A DNA stretch of 12,433 nt from positions 1-12,433 of the forward strand of contig JAUZPT010000047.1 of NCBI GenBank assembly GCA_030705745.1, read 5' to 3'. Position 1 is the first letter of the stretch. Each line of letters starts with the position of its first letter. Under the pieces are notes generated by a model. It was not told the DNA's origin and made no database searches. It worked only from the letters and a program-made list of their open reading frames with translations. Source of the stretch: Bacillota bacterium. GTDB lineage: Bacteria; Bacillota; Bacilli; Bacillales; Cytobacillaceae. The translations under genes were made by a program, and so were the position numbers. This document shows, piece by piece, positions 1 through 12,433 of this stretch.

Positions 1-412
1 ACTGGTCAAGCAAATAAGCCGTTGCCATCGTGAGTGTAACCGGACAATAAAAGCCAGGCTCCGTTTGTGACAGCAAATATCCCTGAGCATACGAGTATAA
101 ATAACCGCCTTTCTTTCCCAACTCAGGAATTTCTTTATGTATATAGCCGACAATGCCAGTGTTATACGTTTCCTCAACGGTTCTCCGGTACCAGTCATTC
201 ACCCATACACTTGAAACATCCACTCCGTACGCAACGAATTTAATTAAGCGTGGCTGTCCTTCCCGGTCCGTGAACCGTGCGCGCTCGTCGATTTCATTTG
301 CACACTTCTCACCGAACAATGTCAGTTCCTTGTCGGCATACAAGAAAACATCCGGCTCCAATACCTCTTTTAATAAGGCTTGAAAAACGGGATCTTCTTT
401 GTAAAAATTCAT
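1..412 (-). CDS. AidB-like acyl-CoA dehydrogenase family protein, N-terminal part (cut by window edge)
   Basis: The reading frame runs open from an ATG at 412 to the window edge, giving the first 137 residues. The start is supported by GGAG and GGTGAT upstream, the latter matching the extended anti-SD pairing. Residues 118-137 (EPGFYCPVTLTMATAYLLDQ) and the preceding helical stretch with VNDWYRR (71-77) resemble the N-terminal domain of the AidB branch of acyl-CoA dehydrogenases; E. coli AidB has the similar CPITMTFA. These are FAD flavoproteins, usually about 550-600 residues, and AidB itself is tied to the alkylation response. The catalytic and FAD-binding parts lie outside the window, so substrate and activity cannot be judged. 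An ordinary fatty-acid dehydrogenase is the alternative, but the long N-terminal extension before the CPVT motif favours the AidB type. Confidence 0.72.
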   Translation of the reverse strand, partial: MNFYKEDPVFQALLKEVLEPDVFLYADKELTLFGEKCANEIDERARFTDREGQPRLIKFVAYGVDVSSVWVNDWYRRTVEETYNTGIVGYIHKEIPELGKKGGYLYSYAQGYLLSQTEPGFYCPVTLTMATAYLLDQ

Positions 413-474
413 ATATCACCACTCCATTCCAAATAGTACTGACGGAAATTAATTTCTGAATAATCAATAAATTT

Positions 475-483
475 ATTATATCA
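475..483 (-). promoter_or_regulatory. Candidate extended -10 promoter for the AidB-like gene
   Basis: On the minus strand the sequence reads TGATATAAT, a perfect TG-n-TATAAT extended -10. This would place the start of transcription near 468, about 56 nt before the ATG at 412. No good -35 is visible, which an extended -10 tolerates. A weaker plus-strand TATACT at 498-503 could serve the divergent gene at 534. Both are calls by eye in an AT-rich spacer. Confidence 0.4.
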
Positions 484-533
484 TGCACCACTGCGGTTAT
501 ACTATAAATAACAGAAACAAAAGGAGCAATTAA

Positions 534-1046
534 ATGGAAAAGAAACAGGCATTATCAATCATTAACATCATAGACTCATGGAGTCATTCCGGGTCACCCC
601 ATTATGAATCGAGCAGGCTTGCTGATCGCAATGGCTCATTGCACGACTTCCATCAATGGGCAAACAGAAAGCCTTTGCTCGCTGGATACGAGGTGACAAA
701 ACCTGAAGGTGACGGGTACTTTTTATTGTTTATCGACTGGCACCGAAACAATAACTTTTATTTAGTCATTTATGCGCATAACAAATCCACCACCTATGCC
801 GAACTTCAAAAAACGGTGGAAGTGGAGGGACTGCAATACATAGCATGGAAATACAATCCGTTAAAACGTGATGGAAAAAACGATCAACGAAAGATGTATT
901 TTAAGCAAGCGTTTGGATCTTTATTTGTAAACATCCAGCTTCCAACCACCACATCGGAAGTGGATGCCTTTTTCGGGCAGCTGTTCAAGCTTTGCAGCAA
1001 TAGACTAAAAGCCGATCGAATCGTTGAAGTGTTTGATTTTGAGTGA
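534..1046 (+). CDS. Hypothetical protein, 170 residues, unrecognised
   Basis: I do not recognise the family. The start ATG has AAGGAG 7 nt upstream (521-526), so expression is credible. The protein looks soluble: there is no signal peptide or membrane segment. It is rich in aromatic residues and has a central run of alternating hydrophobic strands (GYFLLFIDW, FYLVIYAH, around residues 62-83). A basic stretch WKYNPLKRDGKNDQRKMYF lies near 105-123, and the C-terminal half ends in a helix with TTTSEVDAFFGQLFKLCSNR. The layout suggests a small alpha/beta protein. It is convergent with the DUF2971 gene, with only 19 nt between stops and no clear terminator there. No function is proposed. Confidence 0.75.
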   Translation: MEKKQALSIINIIDSWSHSGSPHYESSRLADRNGSLHDFHQWANRKPLLAGYEVTKPEGDGYFLLFIDWHRNNNFYLVIYAHNKSTTYAELQKTVEVEGLQYIAWKYNPLKRDGKNDQRKMYFKQAFGSLFVNIQLPTTTSEVDAFFGQLFKLCSNRLKADRIVEVFDFE

Positions 1047-1065
1047 AAAGGGTTACGGGGGAATA

Positions 1066-2019
1066 TTAAAATCGCAACGGGATAACCGACGTTTTGATTT
1101 GTGTTCCTTCGGTCGATTCCGTGTCGTATCCAAGGGAGTTCAAAAACGTATCAAGCCCAAGGAAGGCATTGTCCATTTTGTTCGTCGGGCCAATCCAGAT
1201 TTCCTTAAGCGGGAGTTTCGTCTTATCCCCTGTTATTTCTTTGAAATTCAACTCGATAAAGGGCATAATAACCCCCTTGGACGTTCTAAATTTAACATCG
1301 GTTTTCCGTGCTTCAGGAAATGCTTCAGGAAAAAAGGCAATTCGATATTCCTCCTCCTGTTTAAACGAAGGATGCTTAAAAAAGTAGCTGTAAATCAGGA
1401 TTCTAAACATGAACTTGTCAGTAATGATGTCTAAATCTTCTTCCGAACGATCCGAAATCGACTCCCAAATATGAAAGTATTTCAGGAATTCTTCACGGAT
1501 GATTTCTTCCTGAATATCTTCATCATAGATGACAAAACCGCTTATAAAAGCATCCCGGTAACGGTATTCGAGAATTTGATGAAGATGTTCAGAGTCCAAA
1601 CCAATGTTGTAGCCATCAAACTGCGAGTAGGAAGACCAATTCGTAATCAAATCAGAAACGTCTGTCAACGACAAAACATAACATTTACTTCGATGATGCA
1701 TATTAAAATAAATGCCTTCCAAATTTCTGAAAATCGATTGCTTAAAAGGAAAGCGTGAATCCTCCTCGCATATTTGACTCGTGACGTTTTCAATCACTGT
1801 TTTAATATATTTTAATTCAGATGTATCATTCAAAAATTCACTTCTAGTTCCCCAAAAAATGCCCGTGTCAATAATCGCATACAATGCCAATAGATTGGTA
1901 TAGTGATAAAGTATACCGTTCGTCTTCATTTTGATTTTGTACTCCCGTTCAAGACTTTCCTCCAACGTGTTAATCAAGTACATTCCTTTGTTTTCATTGT
2001 CATAAAAGCCGGTACCCAC
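1066..2019 (-). CDS. DUF2971 family protein
   Basis: This 317-residue protein carries the pattern of the DUF2971 family. LYHYT is at 37-41 and FLNDTSE at 62-68. A middle LSLTD...LITNWSSY block is at 116-131, followed by GYNIGLD (136-142). A late K...EEEYRI block is at 219-227, and a KEIWIGP strand at 272-278. The start is a GTG (2017-2019) with GGGAGG at 2028-2033, 8 nt away; the internal Met at 31 has no comparable site. The molecular function of DUF2971 is, to my knowledge, not established. The spread of conserved H, Y/W and E residues recalls ADP-ribosyltransferase-like folds, but that is my inference. There is no signal peptide or membrane segment. It is divergent from tnrA and convergent with the hypothetical gene at 534. 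Confidence 0.78.
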   Translation of the reverse strand: MGTGFYDNENKGMYLINTLEESLEREYKIKMKTNGILYHYTNLLALYAIIDTGIFWGTRSEFLNDTSELKYIKTVIENVTSQICEEDSRFPFKQSIFRNLEGIYFNMHHRSKCYVLSLTDVSDLITNWSSYSQFDGYNIGLDSEHLHQILEYRYRDAFISGFVIYDEDIQEEIIREEFLKYFHIWESISDRSEEDLDIITDKFMFRILIYSYFFKHPSFKQEEEYRIAFFPEAFPEARKTDVKFRTSKGVIMPFIELNFKEITGDKTKLPLKEIWIGPTNKMDNAFLGLDTFLNSLGYDTESTEGTQIKTSVIPLRF

Positions 2020-2068
2020 TTCACATTCCTCCCTAACGATCTTTCATAAAAATTTTCAGACAAATTTA

Positions 2069-2097
2069 TTTTCATGTGAGAAAAACTAACATATAAT
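2069..2097 (+). promoter_or_regulatory. tnrA promoter: TTTTCA (-35), 17-nt spacer, TATAAT (-10)
   Basis: A perfect TATAAT lies at 2092-2097, with TTTTCA (4/6 match to the -35 consensus) at 2069-2074, exactly 17 nt away. Transcription would start near 2104, leaving a 35-nt leader to the ATG at 2139. The -10 sits in a perfect palindrome TAACATATAATGTTA (2087-2101). The spacer is filled by a TnrA/GlnR box, listed separately. Confidence 0.65.
2075..2091 (+). promoter_or_regulatory. TnrA/GlnR box in the tnrA promoter
   Basis: TGTGAGAAAAACTAACA matches the published TnrA/GlnR consensus TGTNA-N7-TNACA at every defined position. It occupies the whole 17-nt spacer between the -35 and -10 of tnrA. TnrA-activated promoters usually have the box about 50 bp before the start site, so this placement predicts repression, either by TnrA itself or by GlnR in nitrogen excess. 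Confidence 0.78.
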
Positions 2098-2138
2098 GTT
2101 AAAAACATTTATTTTGATTTTTAATGAGAGGTGAAAAC

Positions 2139-2462
2139 ATGAGCGATCCTTTTTCCTATAAAAATAAAAAAGTAATTAGCATCGGTGTGATGAAGGAGCT
2201 TACCGGCCTTTCCGAAAGGCAAATCCGTTATTACGAAGAACGAAAGCTTATTTTCCCTGAAAGATCTGCGGGCGGAAGCCGTAAATTTTCCTTTTCTGAT
2301 GTTGAGCTGTTAATGGATATAGCCAATAAAATTGAAGACGGTGTGCAAACGTACGAAATTCGACAAGAAATGATTCGTAAACAAAAGGAACAAAATGAAC
2401 AGGTCGTTCGCCAGAAAATGATCCAAGGACAAATTAATGCTCAATTTGGCATTCGCAAGTAA
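2139..2462 (+). CDS. tnrA: TnrA, global nitrogen regulator (MerR family)
   Basis: The 107-residue protein aligns along its length with B. subtilis TnrA (about 110 residues). Its winged helix-turn-helix holds [26 protein letters not shown] (12-37), followed by the wing [10 protein letters not shown] (43-52). In B. subtilis, TnrA is a dimeric DNA-binding protein that activates or represses nitrogen genes under nitrogen limitation and is held inactive by feedback-inhibited glutamine synthetase. The C-terminal segment that makes that contact is kept here ([14 protein letters not shown], 90-103), so the same control is expected. GlnR is the close alternative, but it is longer, has a different tail and precedes glnA. 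I chose the ATG at 2139, which has GAGGTG a few bases upstream. An in-frame ATG at 2124 overlaps that site and has none of its own. The next gene is amtB, a classic TnrA target. Confidence 0.93.
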
Positions 2463-2509
2463 CTCCTCCTTCATTTTATTATTGAGGAGAATAGAAAGAA
2501 CAAAAACCA

Positions 2510-2526
2510 TGTCAGATTTTCTGACT
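2510..2526 (+). promoter_or_regulatory. TnrA box upstream of amtB
   Basis: TGTCAGATTTTCTGACT matches the TnrA consensus TGTNA-N7-TNACA at all defined positions except the last (T for A), and has a perfect GTCAG/CTGAC dyad. It is centred 88 nt before the amtB ATG. In B. subtilis the transporter operon nrgAB is activated from a box about 50 bp before the start site. A weak -10 (GACAAT, 2562-2567) lies at roughly that distance, with no clear -35, as is typical of activator-dependent promoters. Confidence 0.72.
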
Positions 2527-2605
2527 CATTAGTAGAATCTCCTTTCTTTCCATGGCAAGATGACAATTAATACTTTTAAAAATTGCGATGTGAAGGAGAG
2601 AAACG

Positions 2606-3868
2606 ATGGATACTGCATATTTACTAAATAGCCTTTGGGTATTAATCAGCGCTGTGCTCGTTATTCTGATGATTGGTGGATTCATACTTCTCGAAACAGG
2701 TTCAACCCGAATGAAAAATGCGGGCCATATTGCTGGCAAGACGATTCTCACCTTCAGCATCTCCTCGATTGTCTTCTGGGCAGCCGGATATGGCTTAATT
2801 TTCGGAAAAGGAAATGCCTTGATCGGATTCACGGACTTCCTTTATTCAGGTTACGATATTGCAGGAGTAAAACTATCAGGCTCGGTATTTTTCTTATTTC
2901 AGCTCGCATTTGCTGGAATATCGTTAACGGTAGCGTTCGGTGGCTTTGCCGAACGAGCGAAACTAGTTTCTTACCTCGTCTTTTCTGTTTTGTTTTCGGT
3001 TTTTGTTTATCCACCAATCGCACACTGGATTTGGGGCGGGGGTTGGCTTTCAAAACTTGGAGAACAAGATTTTGCCGGCTCTACCGTAGTACATTTAACC
3101 GGGGCGATGGGTGCATTGGCAGCTACGATTCTATTAAAACCAAGGATTGGAAAATTCAACAAAGATGGTTCTGCTAATAATTTGGAAGGCCATAATCAAG
3201 TTTTTACCGCCTTAAGCGTATTGCTTTTGTGGGTCGGATGGTTCGGTTTTAATGCAGGAAGCACGCTTTCTGTGGATGGCGCATTTTTCGGCTATGTGGC
3301 TCTGAATACAAATCTTGCAGCGGCAGCAGGCACAGTCGCTTCCCTGATTATCTCTTGGATGGCTTTGGGCAAGGTGGATGTTCCGATGATGTTGAACGGT
3401 GCATTAGCTGGACTTGTCGCCATCACTGCCTCTTGCGCATATGTAGATACATGGGCAGCGGTGGTCATCGGTTTTATAGCGGGAATACTTGTATTTTACA
3501 GCATACGGTTCTTTGAGAGCAAAGGAATTGATGACCCGATTTTCGCCCTATCCGTTCACGGTGCCGCAGGTGTTTGGGGAACATTGTCCACCGGATTTTT
3601 CGCGACAAAAAAGCTTGCAGCCATCGGAAAACCCGGTTTATTTTATGGCGGCGGCTTAGAACAGCTCGGAGTTCAGACTATAGGTGTGCTTGCGTGCGCT
3701 GTTTACGCATTTATCGTTTCGTACATTTTCTTATCGATCATGAAGCATTTCCTTAATGGATTGCGAGTGACGGAAGAAGAAGAAATTATCGGTCTTGATA
3801 TGAGCGAGCACGGAAGCTACGGATATCCCGAATTGCTTAAAAACGAAAGAAAATTTCAAGTAAAATAA
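2606..3868 (+). CDS. amtB: Ammonium transporter AmtB/NrgA
   Basis: This is a 420-residue Amt/MEP/Rh ammonium channel of the cytoplasmic membrane, similar in size to B. subtilis NrgA (about 404). Family marks are GGFAERAK (112-119), DFAGSTVVHLTGA (155-167) and GHNQ...LLWVGWFGFNAGST (195-220). The pore twin histidines are H163 and H318 (SVHGAAGVWGT). About eleven hydrophobic segments can be traced. The cytoplasmic tail EEEEIIGLDMSEHGSYGYPEL (about 390-410) is the kind of motif that contacts PII proteins in other AmtB proteins. The start follows GGAGAG. No terminator separates it from the DUF294 gene 49 nt downstream, so the two are probably co-transcribed. The PII gene found next to this transporter in B. 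subtilis (nrgB) is absent. Confidence 0.95.
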   Translation: MDTAYLLNSLWVLISAVLVILMIGGFILLETGSTRMKNAGHIAGKTILTFSISSIVFWAAGYGLIFGKGNALIGFTDFLYSGYDIAGVKLSGSVFFLFQLAFAGISLTVAFGGFAERAKLVSYLVFSVLFSVFVYPPIAHWIWGGGWLSKLGEQDFAGSTVVHLTGAMGALAATILLKPRIGKFNKDGSANNLEGHNQVFTALSVLLLWVGWFGFNAGSTLSVDGAFFGYVALNTNLAAAAGTVASLIISWMALGKVDVPMMLNGALAGLVAITASCAYVDTWAAVVIGFIAGILVFYSIRFFESKGIDDPIFALSVHGAAGVWGTLSTGFFATKKLAAIGKPGLFYGGGLEQLGVQTIGVLACAVYAFIVSYIFLSIMKHFLNGLRVTEEEEIIGLDMSEHGSYGYPELLKNERKFQVK

Positions 3869-3917
3869 TTCCGGAAAGTTTGCTAGATGATCCTAACCTA
3901 AGGAGGGTGCAAGCGAA

Positions 3918-4889
3918 ATGGTTTACTGCACCTATAAAGAAATAAGAATGTATCGGGATACCCACATTTCCAGCGTTTCACACGATCATTTTGAGCTTAA
4001 CCGATTTCACGATGAATTGATGCGGCACGTTGTGGAGCTTGCCATTAGCCGAACGGCTGAAAAATTAGGGCCCACTCCCTGCCCTTTTTCTTTTTTTGTC
4101 ATGGGAAGTGCCGGCCGCATGGAGCAGGCGATTTGGAGCGATCAGGACAACGGAATTATTTTTCAAAACAAAAACATCGAAACAAAAACATATTTCATTC
4201 AATTAGGACAGGAAATTACAAATGGACTTTTTGAAGTAGGGTACACCTATTGTGATGGAGGTGTCATGGCAAGCAATGACCAGTGGTGCAAATCTCTATC
4301 GGAATGGGAAGAACAAATCTCGGAATGGATTGAAGAATCATCATGGGAAACCATCCGCAACCTTTTAATTCTGATAGACGGACGCCATCTGTATGGAGAG
4401 AATCAGTTTATCACTAATGTAAAAAAAGCTGCATACCGTTCTATTCATCAAGAACATTTGCTTGCACGCATGCTCGATAATACGATGCTTTTAAAAAAGG
4501 GAGTCGGTTTGTTGGGGCAGTTTTTAACCGAGACACACGGTCCTCATTCCACCTTACTCAATATAAAGGAACGAGCCCTTTATCCTTATGTAAACGCGCT
4601 CCGTCTCTTGGCCGTTAAAGAAAAAATTGAAGAAACTTCTTCTCTTGCCCGAATTCAAAAGCTACCTGCAGAAGTGATGAATTCTCATGAACGCGAAGTA
4701 TATGAAAAACAATTCTTGCAACTATTATACTACCGTATAACCTACGGTGACCATTCAAACTATGAATCCGGCCATTATCTTGTTGTAAGCCGATTGTCTC
4801 GTCAGGAAAAAAAAGAGATGAAAAGCATTATTCGAAATGGTCCACATCTGTATCAATTTGTTCGAAAACTCATCGAAAGGGACGTTTGA
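3918..4889 (+). CDS. DUF294 nucleotidyltransferase-like protein (GlnD-like fold)
   Basis: The 323-residue protein has the polymerase-beta/GlnD-type nucleotidyltransferase motif GSAGRMEQAIWSDQDN at 63-78, with D75 and D77 as likely metal-binding acids. CDGGVMASNDQWCKSLSEW (112-130) is also typical of DUF294. The second half (about 175-310), including LLNIKERALYPYVNALRLLA (213-232), matches the partner domain annotated as putative nucleotidyltransferase substrate-binding. Many DUF294 proteins also carry cNMP-binding and CBS domains; this one does not, so it is a minimal form. Its substrate is unknown. By fold it could transfer a nucleotide to a protein, as GlnD does to PII, or make a small nucleotide. 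AGGAGG at 3901-3906 precedes the ATG by 11 nt. It lies behind amtB and one nucleotide before the exonuclease, consistent with a single TnrA-controlled operon. Confidence 0.85.
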   Translation: MVYCTYKEIRMYRDTHISSVSHDHFELNRFHDELMRHVVELAISRTAEKLGPTPCPFSFFVMGSAGRMEQAIWSDQDNGIIFQNKNIETKTYFIQLGQEITNGLFEVGYTYCDGGVMASNDQWCKSLSEWEEQISEWIEESSWETIRNLLILIDGRHLYGENQFITNVKKAAYRSIHQEHLLARMLDNTMLLKKGVGLLGQFLTETHGPHSTLLNIKERALYPYVNALRLLAVKEKIEETSSLARIQKLPAEVMNSHEREVYEKQFLQLLYYRITYGDHSNYESGHYLVVSRLSRQEKKEMKSIIRNGPHLYQFVRKLIERDV

Positions 4890-4890
4890 C

Positions 4891-5622
4891 ATGGGAATGC
4901 ATGAAATGATTCATTTTTTCAGGCAAATGTCCGGAAAGCTAGATTCGGCCCTATATGCCGGTATTCAAGGTCAAACAGATCCCCGTTCCATCTCCTTTAT
5001 GCGGCAGCTTCAGAAAGACTTGAAGAAAAAAAACAGTCTTGATGTAACGCTGGAACAATTGGAGGTAGTCGTTTTTGATCTTGAAACCACTGGATTTTCC
5101 CCGGAAACTGGTGATCGTCCCATTTCGATAGGGGCCATTAAAATGACGGGAAGCCAAGTGGAAGCAGAACAGACTTTTTATTCTCTTATAAATTCAAAAA
5201 CGCCGATTCCCCCTTCAATTTCCGAACTGACGAACATTCGTGATGAAGACTTACTTAAAGCACCTGATGCTAAGGAGGTACTGTTGCAGTTTTATAAATT
5301 CATTGGCAGCCGCATCCTTATTGCCCATCATGCCATACACGAAAAATCGTTTATGCAAAAGCTGAACCGTGACTATTTACGAATCGGTTTCGATCATCGA
5401 ATCATTGATACTTCTTTTTTAATCCGACTTTCTGATCCTCATTTCAAACCGCAGTCTTTGGAGGATATATGCTCTCAATGTGGAATAGCCGTTTCAGGCC
5501 GGCACCATGCACTCAGCGATGCAAAAATGACGGCAATGCTTTGGAGCCATTATCTGAAAAAAGCACAAGGGTTAGGATTTAGCACTCTAAGAGACGTGTA
5601 CGAACATTTAGCCAGACTTTGA
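4891..5622 (+). CDS. DnaQ-like (DEDD family) 3'-5' exonuclease
   Basis: The 243-residue protein has an N-terminal region of about 55 residues and then an RNase-T/DnaQ exonuclease domain. Exo I is FDLETTG (62-68, acids D63 and E65). Exo III is RHHALSDA (204-211, H205 and D210), which makes it DEDDh type. The Exo II position reads AHHAIHEKSF (145-154): the usual Asp appears as Glu (E151) and the usual Asn as His. Family members remove nucleotides from DNA or RNA 3' ends; some act on small nucleotides. The start at 4891 lies 1 nt after the TGA of the DUF294 gene, with AAAGGGA upstream, so translation is probably coupled. An upstream in-frame ATG (4837) is inside the DUF294 gene and is less likely. 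The stop codon falls in the loop of the terminator. Confidence 0.87.
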   Translation: MGMHEMIHFFRQMSGKLDSALYAGIQGQTDPRSISFMRQLQKDLKKKNSLDVTLEQLEVVVFDLETTGFSPETGDRPISIGAIKMTGSQVEAEQTFYSLINSKTPIPPSISELTNIRDEDLLKAPDAKEVLLQFYKFIGSRILIAHHAIHEKSFMQKLNRDYLRIGFDHRIIDTSFLIRLSDPHFKPQSLEDICSQCGIAVSGRHHALSDAKMTAMLWSHYLKKAQGLGFSTLRDVYEHLARL

Positions 5623-5637
5623 TTCTGGCTTTTTTTT
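5610..5637 (+). terminator. Rho-independent terminator of the amtB operon
   Basis: AGCCAGA (5610-5616) pairs with TCTGGCT (5624-5630), with a 7-nt loop and a following run of T to 5637. The TGA stop codon of the exonuclease gene (5620-5622) lies in the loop. Confidence 0.85.
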
Positions 5638-5682
5638 GGCATAAAATTAGAGTTCTAGAAATATATATCAAGCCACGAACGA

Positions 5683-5736
5683 AGAAAAGCTTTACATTCC
5701 TTCCATGGTGGAATAATGATGGGAATAGGCTTTTCT
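5683..5736 (+). promoter_or_regulatory. Nested hairpin in the leader of the beta-helix gene
   Basis: Three nested stems can be drawn. AGAAAAGC (5683-5690) pairs with GCTTTTCT (5729-5736). Inside it, ATTCC (5696-5700) pairs with GGAAT (5722-5726). At the tip, TTCCA (5701-5705) pairs with TGGAA (5709-5713). The last stem ends in a pyrimidine-rich TTTTCTTTT, so it could act as a terminator or attenuator. It stops 8 nt before the ribosome binding site of the gene at 5757. Its function is inferred only from its shape. Confidence 0.5.
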
Positions 5737-5756
5737 TTTAAAATGAGGTGAACGGT

Positions 5757-7439
5757 ATGCTCTATCTTGAAAAAAGACATGACCCACGTAAAAATTCCAA
5801 ACTAATTGAAGAGATTACAGGGCGAAAACTTAATACAGCTGAAGCGATTCGCGAAACGGAGCTGCTTCTTCAAAACAACTCATGTTCGGTCCCACCTTTT
5901 CATGATTTTGAAGGAACTCAAGGCCTTTCTATTTTGAAAAAATTGAAGACTTCCTTTCTACGATTTTTGCTGACAGAACCTGCCCGTCCTACAGAAAATT
6001 CCGCTCCAACACTGGTAGATGAATTGGGAAATGCTTTTCCGGAGTGGAAAGAACTGTTGGATAAAGAGTACAATCATCTTCAAAATACAATTACTCGAGA
6101 AGTAAATGTGGAGAATTTTGGGGCGGTAGGCGATGGAATCACAGACTGCACGGAGGCGTTTAAAAAGGCAATCGGCAACGGAAAAGTCATCGTTAGGATT
6201 CCTGCAGGTATTTTTGTCACAAAAGGAATTACCCTTCCTTCCATGACGCGTCTCGTTGGTTCAGGCAAAGGTGTTACCACGATTAAATTGCACAAGCAAG
6301 CTTCAAAAGGGACTAGGCTGATTACCAATAGGAACCATTGGAAAGGAAACAGCCATATCTCAGTTGCGGAATTGAGTCTGGATTGGAATGTGGAACGGCT
6401 TGGCGATGCAAAAAAAACTTGCACATGGGGAAATCACTCCAGCTGCCTCACATTTGCGAATGTTACCTTCGGTTGGGTGAAGAATGTGGAAGCCATTAAT
6501 CCCGGCCTTCATGGATTCGATATTTCCTCCACTTTGTACAATTATACAGGTGACGGCTACCGGGCACGCGGAGGAAGCGAGTATATCTGGCTTGATCAGT
6601 TAAACGGACATGGCTTTGGAGACGATGGCATAACGACCCATCATAGCAAAAACATTCTGATCTCCAATTCCCATATGTGCGATCCAAGCGGCCGGGCACA
6701 TGCAAAAGGTTTTTCCAATTCGAATGGAATTGAAGTCGATGATGGCTCTCAGCATATTTGGCTCCTCAACAATTCGACAGCTAGATGCTTCGGAGGCGTT
6801 GAAATAAAGGCACACGGCAATTCATCTGCAGCCAACCATGTCCAAATAATCGGCCATCTTTCGGTCAATGATAATCGTTCCTATAATTTCCGCCATATTG
6901 GGCATCACCAAATCACAGACCCGGAGTCGAGGACCGCTTTTCAAATAATGGCGACCAATATTGTCGCATTAGCTCCCGTTTTTACCGATCTATACGAGGG
7001 CTCAACTCCTCGTGGAATGGTCATATCCGCTTATAAAAATGTAGCAGTAAACTATTTCACCTTGATTGGCGATCCTATTTATGATTATGCCAATAATCCA
7101 GTAATCGCCATACAATACCGTGCCCGAAATGTCAGCTTAAAGCACATCACAATCCGCCACTTTAAAAAAGCTGGAGTCGATATCAACGTATTCGGTGGTG
7201 CCAACCATGCGGACAATATCGCCATCAGCTCTGTCAACGTCCAGAATTCTGCTCCGCGAGCGATCCAAATCGGCTCGGGCATCAACAATGCCTCGGTTGA
7301 TCAACTCCACGCCGTTGGAAGAAACGGAAAGTATGCTTTGAAAGCCGAACCCTCAAGTACAATCGTTTCAAATGTCCAGTCAGAAGGCTACAAAATACAG
7401 ATTTCTCTTGGTGGGAAAGAAAGCCGGGAATTTAGCTGA
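5757..7439 (+). CDS. Right-handed beta-helix protein, pectate-lyase superfamily (phage-adhesin/GH28-like)
   Basis: The 560-residue protein has an N-terminal part of about 115 residues, mostly helical and charged, with no signal peptide or membrane segment. It then enters a pectate_lyase_3-type beta-helix with the entry motif VENFGAVGDGITDCTEAF (118-135). Repeating strands with N and H turns follow, including GFGDDGITTHHSKNILISNS (286-305) and GIEVDDGSQHIWLLNNS (324-340). The DD pairs (289-290 and 328-329) are candidate catalytic acids, as in GH28-like enzymes. Such proteins include phage tail adhesins, polysaccharide lyases and glycosidases; the substrate cannot be told. I chose the ATG at 5757 (GAGGTGA at 5745-5751); an in-frame GTG at 5748 lies within that site. 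It stands alone between two terminators, and no phage genes are nearby. Confidence 0.8.
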   Translation: MLYLEKRHDPRKNSKLIEEITGRKLNTAEAIRETELLLQNNSCSVPPFHDFEGTQGLSILKKLKTSFLRFLLTEPARPTENSAPTLVDELGNAFPEWKELLDKEYNHLQNTITREVNVENFGAVGDGITDCTEAFKKAIGNGKVIVRIPAGIFVTKGITLPSMTRLVGSGKGVTTIKLHKQASKGTRLITNRNHWKGNSHISVAELSLDWNVERLGDAKKTCTWGNHSSCLTFANVTFGWVKNVEAINPGLHGFDISSTLYNYTGDGYRARGGSEYIWLDQLNGHGFGDDGITTHHSKNILISNSHMCDPSGRAHAKGFSNSNGIEVDDGSQHIWLLNNSTARCFGGVEIKAHGNSSAANHVQIIGHLSVNDNRSYNFRHIGHHQITDPESRTAFQIMATNIVALAPVFTDLYEGSTPRGMVISAYKNVAVNYFTLIGDPIYDYANNPVIAIQYRARNVSLKHITIRHFKKAGVDINVFGGANHADNIAISSVNVQNSAPRAIQIGSGINNASVDQLHAVGRNGKYALKAEPSSTIVSNVQSEGYKIQISLGGKESREFS

Positions 7440-7510
7440 TTTTCATCCTTATTAGATGCAAGATAGATAGAAATTGAGAAATAATGCGTTTTCATTTCAA
7501 TGTTCCGGAA

Positions 7511-7542
7511 AAAAACCAGAGCGACTTTACGCTCTGGTTTTT
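7511..7542. terminator. Strong bidirectional rho-independent terminator
   Basis: A perfect 13-bp stem runs from 7511-7523 (A5 then CCAGAGCG) to 7530-7542 (CGCTCTGG then T5), with the loop ACTTTA. A-runs and T-runs on both sides let it work for the beta-helix gene on the plus strand and for the monooxygenase-like gene on the minus strand. Confidence 0.92.
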
Positions 7543-7656
7543 CACTTGTTCCCATTCTCTTTTCACACACACGAGAACCATCCCGGTGTATTTACGCTTG
7601 CCTGCCATAAAGGATTTAGAACGATGAGGCGTTCCAGATCTGACTGTGAGAGACAT

Positions 7657-7950
7657 TTATAATTTTTTTGCAATTTCATAGCGCTCAACGCGAGGAGCTT
7701 CGAGCAAAAGCCCTTTGGACATACTTCCAAAAGTAAGATAGTGTGGAGTGCCACCGTGGAAGCGAACGGCATCAAGATCCTTCCACTCTTCGACCATCAC
7801 AAACGCATTCGACTCTTTTGTATCTTCATAAAGATGGTAGCTAATGTTTCCTTCCTCCGCCTTTGAACCTTCCATTACTAAATTTGCAGCTTCCAGAAAC
7901 TCATCCCGTTTCTCCGGGTTTACTTTAATAAAAGCATGAATCACTATCAT
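7657..7950 (-). CDS. Antibiotic biosynthesis monooxygenase (ABM) family protein, YgiN-like
   Basis: The 97-residue protein is the normal size for the ABM/quinol monooxygenase family of dimeric ferredoxin-like proteins. Family features are the first strand MIVIHAFIKVNPEKRDEF (1-18), EEGNISYHLYED (32-43), FVMVEEWKD (50-58) and HGGTPHYLTF (65-74). Members act on quinones or polyketides without cofactor, and many have no known substrate. I chose the ATG at 7950, which has GGAGG 7 nt upstream. A longer in-frame start at 7977 has no ribosome site. No operon partner is clear: the VOC gene lies 175 nt upstream on the same strand, with no convincing terminator between them. Confidence 0.85.
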   Translation of the reverse strand: MIVIHAFIKVNPEKRDEFLEAANLVMEGSKAEEGNISYHLYEDTKESNAFVMVEEWKDLDAVRFHGGTPHYLTFGSMSKGLLLEAPRVERYEIAKKL

Positions 7951-8125
7951 CTTAATCCCTCCAATTTTTACGGCCATTGATTATTGTCCACAAAAGCCGT
8001 GCGTTTCTATGTATTACACGATAATCCAATCACATTTTTTTACAATTTTTCTGCCTTGTAGATTTTTTATAAAAGGCTTCGTTAAACGATGATGCAGATT
8101 TTTATCGCAATAAACAATCTTGAAA

Positions 8126-8557
8126 TTAAAAAGAAATCATCGCACCACGTTCGTCAAACACTGATGTTGGATTCCATGCTACCTCCCAAAGATTATTCTC
8201 TGGGTCAGAAAAATACGCTGTCCTGCCACCCCAGAAAGCATCACTTGGTTCTCTTAAGATCTTCCCGCCAAGCTCTTTAATTTTTCCAATCGTAGTGTCC
8301 ACTTGTTCTGGTTTATCAACATTAATAGCAAAAGTTACGCCGCGAAATGTATCTGCTGATTGGTTGAATGTAACCCCAGCATCTTTTGCTAACTCCTCAA
8401 TAGGAAAAATGGATAAAATAACACCTGCTGTTTTAAAAGCAGAATAATTATCAGAACTTATCTCTGTTTCTTCCCATCCTAAGCTCTTATAAAATTTACG
8501 AAGCAATGGTAAATTAAAAGCACCTATTGTTATTAAACTTACTCTTTGTGGAACCAT
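8126..8557 (-). CDS. VOC family protein (glyoxalase/bleomycin-resistance fold)
   Basis: The 143-residue protein has the two beta-alpha-beta-beta-beta repeats of the vicinal-oxygen-chelate fold. The first is VSLITIGAFNLPLLRKFYKSLGW (6-28). The second ends in GGRTAYFSDPENNLWEVAWNP (110-130), with E125 as the usual late metal ligand. The first-strand metal histidine is not seen, so the site may be incomplete and enzymatic function is uncertain. Relatives include glyoxalase-like enzymes, dioxygenases and drug-binding resistance proteins. GAGGGGG precedes the ATG at 8557 by 8 nt. A GTG at 8587 in the same frame is possible but has a weaker site. Confidence 0.87.
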   Translation of the reverse strand: MVPQRVSLITIGAFNLPLLRKFYKSLGWEETEISSDNYSAFKTAGVILSIFPIEELAKDAGVTFNQSADTFRGVTFAINVDKPEQVDTTIGKIKELGGKILREPSDAFWGGRTAYFSDPENNLWEVAWNPTSVFDERGAMISF

Positions 8558-8684
8558 TTTTAATTCCCCCTCATATTTAAAATTCACTCTATCCTTTCCC
8601 TATGCAAATATCTTTTTCCTTCTTCAATTATTCGACACGTTCGTTAAATTAGAAATCCAACACTATTTTCAAACAGATTTTTAT

Positions 8685-8717
8685 AAAAAAAAGAATCAGC
8701 ACTCATTGCACCAATTC
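8685..8717 (-). terminator. Probable terminator after the yrdB-like gene
   Basis: On the minus strand, GAATTGGTG and a TGCTGATTC-type arm (8693-8717) can form a stem of about 9 bp with several G-U pairs. Eight T follow (8685-8692). The stem is weak, so the call rests mostly on the T-run and the position 23 nt after the stop codon. Confidence 0.45.
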
Positions 8718-8739
8718 GCCATACGTATTAATAATTTCG

Positions 8740-9090
8740 TTATTGTTTCCAAATGTGCAACAGCAATAAGTTCGTCAGGGCAATGAATGTATATAAACCA
8801 GCAAGCGCAGACTGCTTTGTTAAAAATAAAGCTCCAGCCGCCGCACCGATTATGAAAAGCTCTAACAGTAGGCGCAAAAATCCCTTCAGTGGATACGGTG
8901 CACCTGGTGAACCAAAGGTCCCCCAGATGAAAGCCGCCAGGAGAGGGGTGCCAATACCTAAAAGCCATTTAACAAATGATCCATTACCTGTATAAAACCC
9001 CCAATATCCCAAGGCTGCTAGGCCAACCAACTCCAATAAAAACCTGAGCCCAATATTAGCTGCTTGTAACAATGCCAAAAACAACACCAT
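8740..9090 (-). CDS. YrdB-like (DUF2568) small membrane protein
   Basis: The protein has up to 116 residues and four hydrophobic segments (about 5-30, 39-58, 68-88, 93-112). The signature WGTFGSPGAPYPL (56-68) is typical of the YrdB/DUF2568 family, whose function is unknown. It starts 5 nt after the stop of the TetR gene, so it is the last gene of the operon and probably relies on translational coupling. The start is uncertain: AAAGG directly abuts the ATG at 9090, and the third codon (TTG, 9084) has better spacing. Confidence 0.83.
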   Translation of the reverse strand: MVLFLALLQAANIGLRFLLELVGLAALGYWGFYTGNGSFVKWLLGIGTPLLAAFIWGTFGSPGAPYPLKGFLRLLLELFIIGAAAGALFLTKQSALAGLYTFIALTNLLLLHIWKQ

Positions 9091-9095
9091 CCTTT

Positions 9096-9671
9096 TTAAG
9101 TATTCATTTCTTTAATTCCAGCGAGAAAAGCTTTTATGATAAGTTCCAAACTTTTATCTGTGTTAAGGGCAAGCCCAAAACCTCTATTTTGTTCGAGTGT
9201 TGAAAATCCGTGCAAAATGCTGCGAAGACCTCGGACGGCGTGAAGAGATGCTTCTTCTGACAAACTGTATGACTGTAAAACACTCAATGCCAGATCTACA
9301 ATTTTTTTGCCTGCAAGCTGGACTTCATGATCGGCCGGATCCGGTGCAGCGAGGGTAGCTTCATAAAGGCCTGGGTGCTTTCGGGCAAACAATACATATG
9401 CCTTGCTCAGTTCCATTATGTCTTGATCGCCTGACTCACTACCCATACAATCGGCCAAGGCAGCATAAAGATTTTCAATTCCATAAATCGCCATCAGCTT
9501 CCGTAAATGTGGCAGGCCATCAAAGTGGTTATATAACGATGGCGGACGAATGGACAGTTTTTTCGCAAGGGTCGCCAACGTTACTTCATGAAGTCCGGCT
9601 TCATCGGCAATGTCTGTTGCCGCTAGCAAAATTTCGTTCATATTTAGTGCTATTTTGGGTCTTGGTGACAT
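9096..9671 (-). CDS. TetR family transcriptional regulator
   Basis: The 191-residue protein has the TetR N-terminal helix-turn-helix: AATDIADEAGLHEVTLATL (17-35), then AKKLSIRPPSLYNHFDG (36-52), where LYNHF marks the recognition helix. The C-terminal ligand domain, with YVLFARKHPGLYEATL and HAVRGLRSILHGF, resembles the WHG-type TetR_C_33 domain. The inducer is unknown. AGAGGAG lies 9 nt before the ATG. The gene sits 14 nt after the MBL gene and 5 nt before the YrdB-like gene. Two matching palindromes over the operon promoter are its likely operators, which would make it a repressor of its own operon. Confidence 0.9.
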   Translation of the reverse strand: MSPRPKIALNMNEILLAATDIADEAGLHEVTLATLAKKLSIRPPSLYNHFDGLPHLRKLMAIYGIENLYAALADCMGSESGDQDIMELSKAYVLFARKHPGLYEATLAAPDPADHEVQLAGKKIVDLALSVLQSYSLSEEASLHAVRGLRSILHGFSTLEQNRGFGLALNTDKSLELIIKAFLAGIKEMNT

Positions 9672-9685
9672 TTCAGGTTGCTCCT

Positions 9686-10393
9686 CTAGTTCAATTTACT
9701 TTCGAATCGCTCAATTGTTTTCTGCATTTCCTTTGCAGGTTTTTTCACGATTTCTCCATGCCCGACTGCAAGCACGGACGGATTCAATTCCATCAGTTTT
9801 TTTGCGCTTATTAACGCGGTTTCCTTATGCCACGTTCCTAGTGCAGGAAATGGAAACCAAAATCTAATATCCCCGGCAACCGCCAATCCGCCTCTCGTTT
9901 GAAACGCATCACCGGCAATCAGTGCATTTGTCCGCACATCCAAAAATGACATCGAGCCGGGTGTATGGCCTGGTGTTGCAATTGCCAATAATGATCCTAT
10001 CCGATCTCCATCTTTTAGAAGGACATTAGGCCTCGTCTTTAATTTTTTGGGGACGCCGCCTTTGATTGATACATTTGGCTCATCGCTAGCAATTGACATG
10101 TCTCCGTCCATTATTCTCGCATCTCGTACCGATATATGAACGATTGCATTGGGAAACGCTTCCTTGACGGAATCCAGGGCACCCACATGATCTTCATGCG
10201 CATGGGTTAGAATAATTTTTGAGATCGATTTTCCAATTGTTTTTGCAGCTTTAAGAATACCTTTCGCACTAAATGGCATCGCCGCATCAATCAGTGTTAA
10301 TCCATCTTCTTCTTCGACGAAATAACAATTGACAGGAAAGAAACGTGGCATCGAGGTTAACTGATACAATTTTTCCTCATGAATCATTCTCAT
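9686..10393 (-). CDS. MBL-fold metallo-hydrolase
   Basis: The 235-residue protein has the full metallo-beta-lactamase metal site. HAHEDH is at 64-69, H143 in TPGHTPGS (140-147), D162 in IAGDAF (159-164), and H212 in GHGE (211-214). This supports a two-metal hydrolase of the glyoxalase II/lactonase/thioesterase-like type. The substrate is not evident; lactones, thioesters and esters are possible. There is no signal peptide, so it is cytoplasmic. I chose the ATG at 10393 with GGGAG 9 nt upstream. A TTG at 10402 directly abuts that site and is unlikely. It is the first gene of the operon with the TetR regulator and the YrdB-like protein, and is probably induced when the regulator binds its ligand. 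Confidence 0.9.
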   Translation of the reverse strand: MRMIHEEKLYQLTSMPRFFPVNCYFVEEEDGLTLIDAAMPFSAKGILKAAKTIGKSISKIILTHAHEDHVGALDSVKEAFPNAIVHISVRDARIMDGDMSIASDEPNVSIKGGVPKKLKTRPNVLLKDGDRIGSLLAIATPGHTPGSMSFLDVRTNALIAGDAFQTRGGLAVAGDIRFWFPFPALGTWHKETALISAKKLMELNPSVLAVGHGEIVKKPAKEMQKTIERFESKLN

Positions 10394-10407
10394 ATTATCC
10401 AACTCCC

Positions 10408-10430
10408 TAAAACTAATGTCGTTAGTTTTA
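10408..10430 (-). promoter_or_regulatory. TetR operator 1 (over the start site)
   Basis: A perfect palindrome with 9-bp arms TAAAACTAA and TTAGTTTTA surrounds the centre TGTCG. The core ACTAATGTCGTTAGT is nearly the same as operator 2. It covers the predicted transcription start (about 10423) of the MBL-TetR-YrdB operon. Confidence 0.8.
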
Positions 10431-10458
10431 TTTTAACTAATATCATTAGTTAAATCAA
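10430..10458 (-). promoter_or_regulatory. Promoter of the MBL-TetR-YrdB operon
   Basis: Read on the minus strand, TTGATT (10453-10458) and TAAAAT (10430-10435) are separated by exactly 17 nt. They match the sigma-A consensus at 4/6 and 5/6. The start of transcription would be near 10423. Confidence 0.72.
10432..10454 (-). promoter_or_regulatory. TetR operator 2 (in the -35/-10 spacer)
   Basis: A perfect palindrome with 10-bp arms TTTAACTAAT and ATTAGTTAAA surrounds ATC. Its core ACTAATATCATTAGT differs from operator 1 at two symmetric positions. The two centres (10443 and 10419) are 24 bp apart. It fills the spacer of the operon promoter, so binding would block RNA polymerase. Confidence 0.8.
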
Positions 10459-10492
10459 GAACTATCTTCAAAATAAATTTAACTATTTTCAT

Positions 10493-10499
10493 TGTCGAA
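10493..10499 (+). promoter_or_regulatory. Spo0A box
   Basis: TGTCGAA is a perfect match to the 0A box consensus, preceded by the often favoured T. It lies about 17 nt before the candidate -35 of the kinase promoter. A single 7-mer can occur by chance, so the call depends on the nature of the downstream gene. Confidence 0.5.
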
Positions 10500-10515
10500 A
10501 AAAATTTCACACTAT

Positions 10516-10545
10516 TTTCCATCTGCAACCCAATTATGTTATAAT
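10516..10545 (+). promoter_or_regulatory. Promoter of the sensor kinase gene
   Basis: TGTTATAAT (10537-10545) is a perfect extended -10. TTTCCA (10516-10521), a 4/6 match to the -35, lies 18 nt before the TATAAT. Transcription would start near 10552 and give a leader of about 138 nt before the ATG at 10690, in which I see no clear structure. Confidence 0.55.
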
Positions 10546-10689
10546 CCCTTTAATTTGGTTTTTCCGTACGAATAGTATCACTTTCGTAATGTCAAAGTCT
10601 TTTTTAAAAATTAACTGAATTATATGTTAATTGCACTACAAACATTACATAATAAAATCCTTCTCAGATCAGAACAGGAGCTTCAATTC

Positions 10690-12357
10690 ATGAGAAAAAA
10701 AAGACTGTTATTCTTTTTTCTGCTTACAAGCATCATTTGGATTACAGGAACAAATTACCTGCTTAATCAATTTACCCCTTCTCCCTTACTCCATTTTATT
10801 GGACATGCAAAAGAGATGTTGTACGTTGTAATTACAGGATGGTTTTTTTACGTTTCATTAAAAAAAACAGAAGAAAGAAATGTTGCCAAAATTCAGGAAG
10901 AGCGCCTCTCCACTCTCATAAACTCAATGGTCGACTTTGTTAATTTCAAAGATGGGGAAGGACGATGGATTGAATCAAATAATTTCGGCCTTAAATTGTT
11001 CCAGCTTGAAAACGTCGATTATCGTGGAAAAACAGACGCTGAATTGGCAGAGTATACACAGTTTTACGCTGATGCTCTCCGCTATTGCGAAGCATCTGAC
11101 GAAGAAACGTGGAACAACGGGACGATTACAAGAGTTGAAGAAACCATTCCATTACCAAATGGGGATGTAAAAACGTTTGACACAATCAAAGTGCCCCTTT
11201 ACCACTCCAACCATAGCCGAAAGGGACTAGTCATAATCGGAAGGGATATAACCGAGCGAAAACAAATAGAAAAACTTCTCGAAGAAAGCCGTCAGCAGTA
11301 TAAATCACTGTTTGAATTTAGCCCGGATATGGTTTATATGATGAATATGGATGGTATAATCACCAATTTAAACCCGCAATTTAAAACCATTACAGGTTAT
11401 GATGTAGATACATATATCGGGAAAAATGTAAAAGATGTTTTGCCTCACCTTTATCGCGAATCAACTCTAAGCTATTTTTCAACCGTCCTGGCTGAAAAAA
11501 AACCACAAATTTATGAAGTGCAAATGGAACATAAAAACGGCAATAACATAATATTAGAATGCACTGCCCTTCCTATCGTCGTTAACGGTGAAATTGCAGG
11601 TATTATTGGCTATGGAAAGGATATCTCCCAATTGCGCCAGGCGGAGGAAAATTTAAGAAGGACGGAAAAATTGTCGGTAGTGGGTGAACTTTCCGCAAGT
11701 GTTGCCCATGAAATCAGGAATCCACTTACTTCTTTAATTGGCTTTGTCCAGCTTTTGCTTATGGAAGACAGCAAGCATCATTTTTACTATCAAATCATGC
11801 TCGATGAATTAAATCGCATTAACCATATCGTCGGGGAGCTCTTGCTTTTGGCAAAACCGCAGCAGATTAAATACACAACAGCAAATCTGCAGACGATCCT
11901 TCATGATGTTATTTCTTTACTGTCTACTGAAGCAAGTTTGCATAATGTTCAAATTGATTTTATTACAGAGAAAAAAGCAATGCCCATTGAATGTGAACCA
12001 AATCAGTTGAAGCAGTTATTTATCAATATTATTAAAAATGCCATTGAAGCATCGTCAAGCGGCAGCTCCGTTTCGATTTCTCTTGAAAGCTCAGCACAGG
12101 ATATTGTTTCCATCACCATCACCGATCACGGATGTGGAATATCAAAAGAACGCTTGGAGAAAATCGGTGAACCATTTTATTCTTCCAAGGAAAAAGGAAC
12201 AGGACTGGGGTTAACCGTAAGTTCCAAAATCGTTGCTCAGCATCACGGCACGATTCAATTTAAGAGTGAAATCAACCAAGGTACTGAAGTGTATATTGAA
12301 TTGCCTATTAAAAATGGAAATAGTGAAAAACACAATTCTTCAATGATGGAGCAATAA
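10690..12357 (+). CDS. Membrane sensor histidine kinase with two PAS domains (sporulation-kinase-like)
   Basis: The 555-residue protein has two membrane segments (about 5-24 and 42-56), PAS 1 (about 72-190, ending IIGRDITERKQ) and PAS 2 (about 202-316, ending IIGYGKDISQ). HisKA follows, with H340 in SVAHEIRNPLTSLIGFVQLL. The HATPase domain has the N box LFINIIKNAIEA (443-454), G1 DHGCGIS (479-485) and G2 GTGLGLTVSSKIV (503-515). The H-box region strongly resembles the KinA/KinE group that feeds the Spo0F-Spo0A phosphorelay. No response regulator is adjacent, which fits that class. I chose the ATG at 10690 because AGGAG lies 9 nt upstream and the signal-anchor starts directly. An in-frame ATG at 10624 lacks a site. 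A Spo0A box and promoter lie upstream. Which Kin orthologue it is cannot be told. Confidence 0.9.
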   Translation: MRKKRLLFFFLLTSIIWITGTNYLLNQFTPSPLLHFIGHAKEMLYVVITGWFFYVSLKKTEERNVAKIQEERLSTLINSMVDFVNFKDGEGRWIESNNFGLKLFQLENVDYRGKTDAELAEYTQFYADALRYCEASDEETWNNGTITRVEETIPLPNGDVKTFDTIKVPLYHSNHSRKGLVIIGRDITERKQIEKLLEESRQQYKSLFEFSPDMVYMMNMDGIITNLNPQFKTITGYDVDTYIGKNVKDVLPHLYRESTLSYFSTVLAEKKPQIYEVQMEHKNGNNIILECTALPIVVNGEIAGIIGYGKDISQLRQAEENLRRTEKLSVVGELSASVAHEIRNPLTSLIGFVQLLLMEDSKHHFYYQIMLDELNRINHIVGELLLLAKPQQIKYTTANLQTILHDVISLLSTEASLHNVQIDFITEKKAMPIECEPNQLKQLFINIIKNAIEASSSGSSVSISLESSAQDIVSITITDHGCGISKERLEKIGEPFYSSKEKGTGLGLTVSSKIVAQHHGTIQFKSEINQGTEVYIELPIKNGNSEKHNSSMMEQ

Positions 12358-12373
12358 ACAGTCTTAATAACAT

Positions 12374-12424
12374 AAAAAAACCTTTCAAAAGGAGAATCAT
12401 GTCTTCTTTTCGAAAGGTTTTTTT
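12374..12424. terminator. Rho-independent terminator after the kinase gene
   Basis: A7-CCTTTC (12374-12386) pairs with GAAAGG-T7 (12412-12424) over 13 bp. A partly paired inner region (AAAAGGAGAA against TTCTTTT) extends the stem. The flanking A-run and T-run would let it act in both directions. Confidence 0.88.
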
Positions 12425-12433
12425 CGTCTAACG

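Follow-up and report, generated by a model that had tools for sequence, protein, structure and literature searches.

Why would genes for a nucleotidyltransferase and an exonuclease stand directly behind that of an ammonium channel? The question is raised by a 12,433-nucleotide (nt) stretch of DNA from a Bacillota bacterium of the Cytobacillaceae (assembly GCA_030705745.1, contig JAUZPT010000047.1, positions 1 to 12,433; hereafter the window), in which tnrA, amtB, a DUF294 nucleotidyltransferase gene and a gene for a DEDDh-type exonuclease follow one another on the plus strand. Comparison with related genomes revealed that the last three of these form one conserved gene unit, that the two enzymes have recognizable folds with intact catalytic motifs and are absent together, and that AmtB proteins are partitioned by type between this enzyme pair and PII. 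We propose, at a probability of roughly 0.38, that the locus is a nitrogen-controlled unit in which a writer of the GlnE/DrrA type marks AmtB or a partner bound to it, with the exonuclease serving in the same pathway.

The product of amtB (2606..3868, +) belongs to the Amt family, with a PF00909 match (388 bits) over residues 10-407 and a TIGR00836 score of 400.9 bits (cut-off 343.3). After 49 nt follows the DUF294 gene (3918..4889, +), coding for the short form of the protein, and after a single nucleotide the exonuclease gene (4891..5622, +), whose likely start is the ATG at 4891, the mechanically called open reading frame (ORF) beginning at 4837, within the DUF294 gene. Ahead of amtB lies tnrA (2124..2462, +), encoding a MerR-type nitrogen regulator that scores 175.7 bits with the TnrA equivalog model NF053740 (cut-off 140). 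TnrA/GlnR-like boxes, each with one mismatch to the consensus, were found upstream of tnrA (2075..2091, TGTGAGAAAAACTAACA) and of amtB (2510..2526, TGTCAGATTTTCTGACT); with a relaxed pattern the former shows no mismatch on the minus strand. An intrinsic terminator (5610..5637, +; the predicted site itself spans 5610-5630), with a 7-bp stem of 4 G-C pairs and a T run, closes the operon. Among the 21 terminator-like sites listed for the window (shuffles average 11.0) this one comes first, and neither the gap after amtB nor that after DUF294 contains one. The initial annotation, made from the letters of this stretch, had described amtB, DUF294 and exonuclease genes in this order between a TnrA box and one terminator, and all were found in place. 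We infer that the three genes are co-transcribed and respond to nitrogen.

Is this arrangement preserved elsewhere? From 193 genomes of the family, we fetched 46 neighbourhoods of the short form and 14 of a longer form described below. In the short-form loci, amtB lies upstream on the same strand in 46/46 and the exonuclease gene downstream in 45/46, the one locus without it being a second copy in a genome (G007) that holds the complete set on another contig. Gaps between amtB and DUF294 range from 4 to 440 nt, with no ATG-initiated ORF longer than 61 amino acids (aa) in those above 150 nt, and the DUF294 and exonuclease frames overlap or lie at most 21 nt apart. A scan of named genomes gave a similar picture: among the best 80 of 372 loci, which span Neobacillus, Mesobacillus, Pseudalkalibacillus, Alkalihalobacillus, Aquibacillus, Metabacillus, Fictibacillus and others, and 21 of which are identical in exact sequence to the first set, amtB is upstream in all 80 and the exonuclease gene downstream in 79, the lone miss being the same G007 record. 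Identical gene order was also found in 6/6 loci of a second family of the same class, at 56-60% (AmtB), 33-39% (DUF294) and 36-38% (exonuclease) identity. Of 92 listed short-form rows, 65 have a counterpart among the listed AmtB rows; from the other 27 we fetched 11, and all 11 carry amtB. The tie between the enzyme pair and amtB that the initial annotation had put forward thus goes far beyond chance. Both forms taken together, DUF294 occurs in 153 of the 193 genomes. Interrupted copies occur as well: the DUF294 gene is split, whether by degeneration or by sequencing error, into two open pieces between intact amtB and exonuclease genes in a complete genome of the same genus (L039, 7029-8045, G001) and appears as two overlapping frames in Neobacillus pocheonensis (L191), and amtB is in two pieces in Neobacillus sp. 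PS3-12 (L055/L179).

In the window alone, the boxes do not rise above chance, with 53 of 200 shuffles reaching the same count. Among relatives, a box with at most one mismatch to the relaxed pattern lies within 300 bp upstream of 45 of 47 amtB genes of the DUF294-linked type, window included (L042 and L076 are the two without). When upstream sequences were shuffled in a comparable test, 33 of 820 had such a box, and it is this difference that makes the amtB box convincing. A tnrA-like ORF of more than 60% identity is present in 29/46 family loci, and one lies on the amtB strand in 60/80 named loci; no ORF above 30% identity to TnrA was found near the operon in the six second-family loci or upstream of it in the Metabacillus and Alkalihalobacillus loci. 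Hence tnrA is a frequent, not a constant, neighbour, and the conserved unit is amtB–DUF294–exonuclease.

What kind of enzyme is the DUF294 protein? Its 323 residues comprise a nucleotidyltransferase domain (PF03445, 131.7 bits, cut-off 21) and a helical DUF294_C domain (PF10335, 78.1 bits, cut-off 22.5). A profile search for solved structures by sequence gave no match up to an E value of 1, so that its relationship to known structures is visible by fold alone. The fold is of the protein adenylyltransferase type, matching GlnE and DrrA, and the two domains are arranged as in these enzymes. Relative to GlnE, the glutamine synthetase adenylyltransferase/removase, and to DrrA, it is at most 12% identical, has one catalytic unit only and lacks a regulatory domain. 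The initial label of the protein as GlnD-like fits the fold matches listed less well, GlnE and DrrA being among them and GlnD not, which does not in itself exclude GlnD. A motif of the GS-X10-D-X-D type (G63, S64, D75, D77) is invariant in 46/46 short and 13/13 long forms; fold and motif together make nucleotidyl transfer the likely activity. MntA of the MntA–HepT system is likewise a GS-X10-D-X-D enzyme and puts three AMP, joined 3'-5', on a tyrosine (PMC7641770). Unlike the DUF294 protein, it is a small single-domain enzyme with a toxin as target, and no exonuclease is named in the portions of that account available to us (PMC7641770). The kind of product is relevant here because a 3'-5' exonuclease could trim a 3'-5' AMP chain.

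DEDDh enzymes, among which we count RNase T, carry a signature of acidic residues, D-E, D and D, with a histidine five residues before the last. The exonuclease of the window (PF00929; NF005836, 280.3 bits, cut-off 261) retains D63, E65, H205 and D210, and comparison of its model places it in the exonuclease fold, closest to the exonuclease domains of PolC, DinG and DnaQ. Its motif ExoII reads H-E. Glutamate replaces the ExoII aspartate in 45/45 family and 79/79 named-locus enzymes, and aspartate is present in 6/6 second-family enzymes, on sequence a conservative difference that leaves the position acidic throughout. The 'HE' pair was considered as a mark of AmtB-linked exonucleases and set aside, as it holds in Bacillaceae-type loci only and the second family reads 'HD'.

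The two enzymes behave as one unit. AmtB occurs without DUF294 in 16 family genomes among the matches listed, and in none of the nine examined does such an exonuclease lie beside amtB. The best exonuclease matches anywhere in these nine genomes reach at most 75 bits, compared with 235-540 bits for the true enzyme in three control genomes, and the top-scoring ones belong to proteins as large as DinG and PolC, with frames some 930-970 or 1,450 residues long. The pair is thus missing together in 9/9 genomes. On a quick AmtB tree, computed without bootstrap and with 21 of 81 inner branches open, the label for the pair switches at least seven times. At three loci where the pair is missing (L219, L220 and L221), amtB stands behind genes that resemble, by eye, those for glutamate synthase and asparagine synthetase.

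Does the pair stand in place of PII, as the initial annotation had it? For the operon it does: no PII gene was found in the window, and PII adjacent to amtB, as in nrgAB or glnK–amtB, is not the arrangement here. For the genome it does not. The sole PII match in the window's genome (assembly 85.7% complete) directly precedes a second amtB, on contig C292, whose product is 39% identical to the AmtB of the window; a PII gene elsewhere was an outcome that the annotation itself had counted against its idea. Contamination is unlikely, since a sister genome (L126) has close counterparts of this PII (89% identity) and of the second AmtB (88%). Across the family, PII matches occur in 61 of 193 genomes and canonical PII, defined by our own cut of about 69 bits, in 42 genomes and 47 rows. 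We examined 41 of these rows as cassettes led by PII; each has a second-type AmtB gene behind that for PII, and within the fetched stretches no DUF294 gene was found. At a further locus (L228), which brings the rows examined to 42 of the 47, PII lies after an AmtB of a third type. A box precedes 35 of the 41 cassettes, against 33 of 820 shuffled stretches. Among the 92 listed short-form genomes, canonical PII is absent from 64 and present in 28, so that the association with genome-wide absence of nrgB or glnK expected at the outset is not strict. Exclusion of PII by DUF294 at the level of the genome was accordingly rejected; PII forms a separate cassette with its own AmtB.

The two AmtB types thus share a kind of box, but each has a partner of its own. 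The nrgA–nrgB and glnK–amtB operons resemble the present unit in joining a channel gene to a regulator gene under a TnrA/GlnR-type box, and differ in carrying the other AmtB type with PII in place of two enzymes; the window's genome has both operons. Residues D155, H163 and H318, which we take to be the binding-site aspartate and pore histidines corresponding to D160, H168 and H318 of E. coli, are invariant in 105 AmtBs of the window type and 41 of the PII type. The third AmtB type is itself clustered in one genome (G028), with three genes on one strand within about 8 kb (L232, 2753-10967) in addition to a DUF294-linked (L275) and a PII-linked (L123) AmtB. Genes of about 650 and 190 aa precede the third-type AmtB genes at L229, L230, L232 and L233.

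A second transporter is attached to the same kind of enzyme pair. The long form of DUF294 carries cNMP and CBS domains and is preceded by a symporter gene in 14/14 family loci (32% identity at L080, 90% or more in the others); the symporter and long-form frames overlap in 13, a DUF4212 gene lies ahead in 13, and an exonuclease gene follows in all 14. This cluster of DUF4212, sodium/solute symporter, cNMP/CBS/DUF294 protein and exonuclease thus parallels the amtB operon, from which it differs in the sensor domains, in a serine replacing D154 of the short form, and in an exonuclease with F-D in motif ExoII (14/14 family loci) rather than H-E; it is Phe in place of His before the ExoII acid that sets the family's symporter-linked enzymes apart from the AmtB-linked ones. 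More distant long-form exonucleases (n=11) read F-D in six cases, the other five falling outside the search pattern. Among loci of other families in the phylum (n=12), all carry an exonuclease-like ORF next to DUF294 (convergent at L285; overlapping and 23% identical at L279) and six have a symporter within the stretch; neighbours elsewhere include aconitase, flavin oxidoreductase, and TPR or metallophosphatase proteins. Linkage to a transporter can therefore be taken as firm for short-form DUF294 and, within the family, for the long form, but it does not hold for DUF294 proteins in general. From its listed domains (cAMP-binding, CBS, nucleotidyltransferase), Pflu5625 of Pseudomonas appears to be a relative of the long form; it is a member of the CrbS/R acetate regulon, as are actP and acs, and protein nucleotidylation is cited there as a prediction (PMC5715377).

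In conjunction, these observations lead us to the following model. Nitrogen limitation would induce the amtB–DUF294–exonuclease operon. The DUF294 protein, as a minimal version of a GlnE/DrrA-type protein nucleotidyltransferase, would add one or a few nucleotides to AmtB, at its cytosolic face or tail, or to a partner held by AmtB, and this mark would set the activity of the channel. The exonuclease would act in the same pathway, most simply by taking the nucleotide or nucleotides off, and could, as a 3'-5' enzyme, trim a chain of the MntA kind. Covalent marking would thereby serve the AmtB type of the window where the other AmtB type uses PII. AmtB is a possible target, as its neighbourhood suggests, and the exonuclease a candidate for the eraser of the mark.

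Several points weigh against this model. A gene neighbourhood is no proof that AmtB is the target, and the roles assigned to the two enzymes derive from genes, folds and motifs. At least nine genomes keep AmtB of the window type but not the pair. The longest frame among the rows listed has 721 aa, the size class of the long form, so that no fusion to a transporter or exonuclease was seen among them. Y405, in the AmtB tail GLDxSEHG[S/T]YGYPE, is conserved in 104/105 AmtBs of the window type (the remaining one has a gap), with Pro in 41/41 of the PII type; we considered it as a docking or acceptor site and dropped it as evidence, because it is retained in 9/9 AmtBs without DUF294 and so stays where the pair is absent. 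The best fold match is the N-terminal domain of GlnE, which removes AMP (PMC12663964), and fold does not tell adding from removing. In a published test, RNase T left the AMP on SelO-modified proteins in place, both in vitro and in cells, which is direct evidence against a general DEDDh eraser; RNase Z can act as a deAMPylase, so that deAMPylation by a nuclease exists (PMC12663964). Deletion of Pflu5625 gave no phenotype (PMC5715377). As a whole, the initial interpretation is partly supported, by the tie to amtB, the nitrogen-type box, a protein-adenylyltransferase fold and the joint absence of the enzymes, and fails as written on the absence of PII.

What else could the pair do? The closest match by fold, GlnE, has glutamine synthetase as its substrate, and the DUF294 protein may likewise mark another protein, be it TnrA, GlnR, glutamine synthetase or yet another, lying beside amtB as both are needed under nitrogen limitation. 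The tnrA-like gene in 29/46 family loci is consistent with this, yet it is amtB that is the constant neighbour and tnrA that is missing from the second-family, Metabacillus and Alkalihalobacillus loci; moreover, it is another transporter that accompanies the long form in the family, and Gram-positive glutamine synthetase of the GSI-alpha type is stated not to be AMPylated (PMC9249791). We consider such a target unlikely. The pair might instead act on RNA or a small nucleotide, with the DUF294 protein extending an RNA 3' end or making a nucleotide signal and the exonuclease trimming or destroying it, a reading that we rate about as unlikely.

It is also conceivable that the enzymes have no functional link to the channel and merely belong to a nitrogen-starvation regulon, for example for nucleic-acid salvage. 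Purine breakdown does fall within the TnrA/GlnR regulons (PMC3412718), and AmtB is kept alone in some genomes, but adjacency to amtB in all 46 and 80 loci in a single gene order that extends beyond the family, the fact that both enzymes are missing together and the attachment of the long-form pair to a transporter gene within the family render this improbable. Least probable by far is a toxin–antitoxin-like or defence module built on a nucleotidyltransferase and a HEPN-like domain. The operon is conserved with amtB and a nitrogen box, its partners being amtB and the exonuclease gene, with no separate HEPN gene in it; the GlnD/GlnE/DUF294_C row is listed without the conserved HEPN motif in a published survey (PMC3710099). 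An Rfam scan was empty, and a PADLOC scan gave no match for DUF294. DEDDh models in such a scan are expected to match exonucleases widely.

This gene set had been noticed before. In a 2012 survey of GlnR in Bacilli, a table footnote remarks that amtB–DUF294–dnaQ 'seems part of an operon' (PMC3412718, Table 1, footnote d), the same genes beside amtB as here. The eight rows so marked comprise Anoxybacillus, four Geobacillus, two Paenibacillus and Brevibacillus, six with an empty glnK cell, and none of these species is among our 80 named loci. In the parts of the survey available to us, the remark comes with neither a function nor a structure, and the exonuclease motif, the pattern of loss and a tie to the long form do not appear; it was the one paper linking DUF294 to amtB that a literature search for these genes found. 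The present analysis adds the breadth and order of the unit, the fold of the nucleotidyltransferase, the signature of the exonuclease, the absence of both enzymes together, the division of AmtB types by partner and the symporter parallel.

The remainder of the window holds genes of other kinds. Upstream lie a 170-aa ORF (534-1046) without a family match in Pfam, NCBIfam or PADLOC and, on the minus strand, a DUF2971 protein (1066-2019, 37 bits) with a weak match to the PADLOC candidate PDC-S31 (E value 4e-5). A pectate-lyase-like protein (PF12708, 5748-7439) is encoded directly past the terminator, and a PAS sensor histidine kinase (10624-12357) bears partial likeness, below cut-offs, to models of AtoS and the sporulation kinase KinD.

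What would the model mean for the family? The classic example of a transporter under direct gating is AmtB with PII. Canonical PII was not found in 64 of the 92 listed short-form genomes, and the window's AmtB type has the enzyme pair as its conserved partner. More speculatively, and rather improbably in our estimate, the pair may be a portable two-gene switch for reversible nucleotidylation of transporters, with a GlnE-like writer and a DEDDh eraser serving AmtB in the sensor-less short form and sodium/solute symporters in the cNMP/CBS long form; for ammonium it would stand in for PII, and the eraser might trim a short 3'-5' chain on a tyrosine such as MntA builds. If so, it would provide, to our knowledge, a first example both of a nucleotidylated transporter and of an exonuclease that erases protein-bound nucleotides. 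The small size of the system, two genes, and their paired loss make it directly testable. If the pair does mark AmtB, it would constitute a second way of gating ammonium uptake, give a biochemical job to a domain of so many genomes of the family, and explain why the same pair accompanies symporters.

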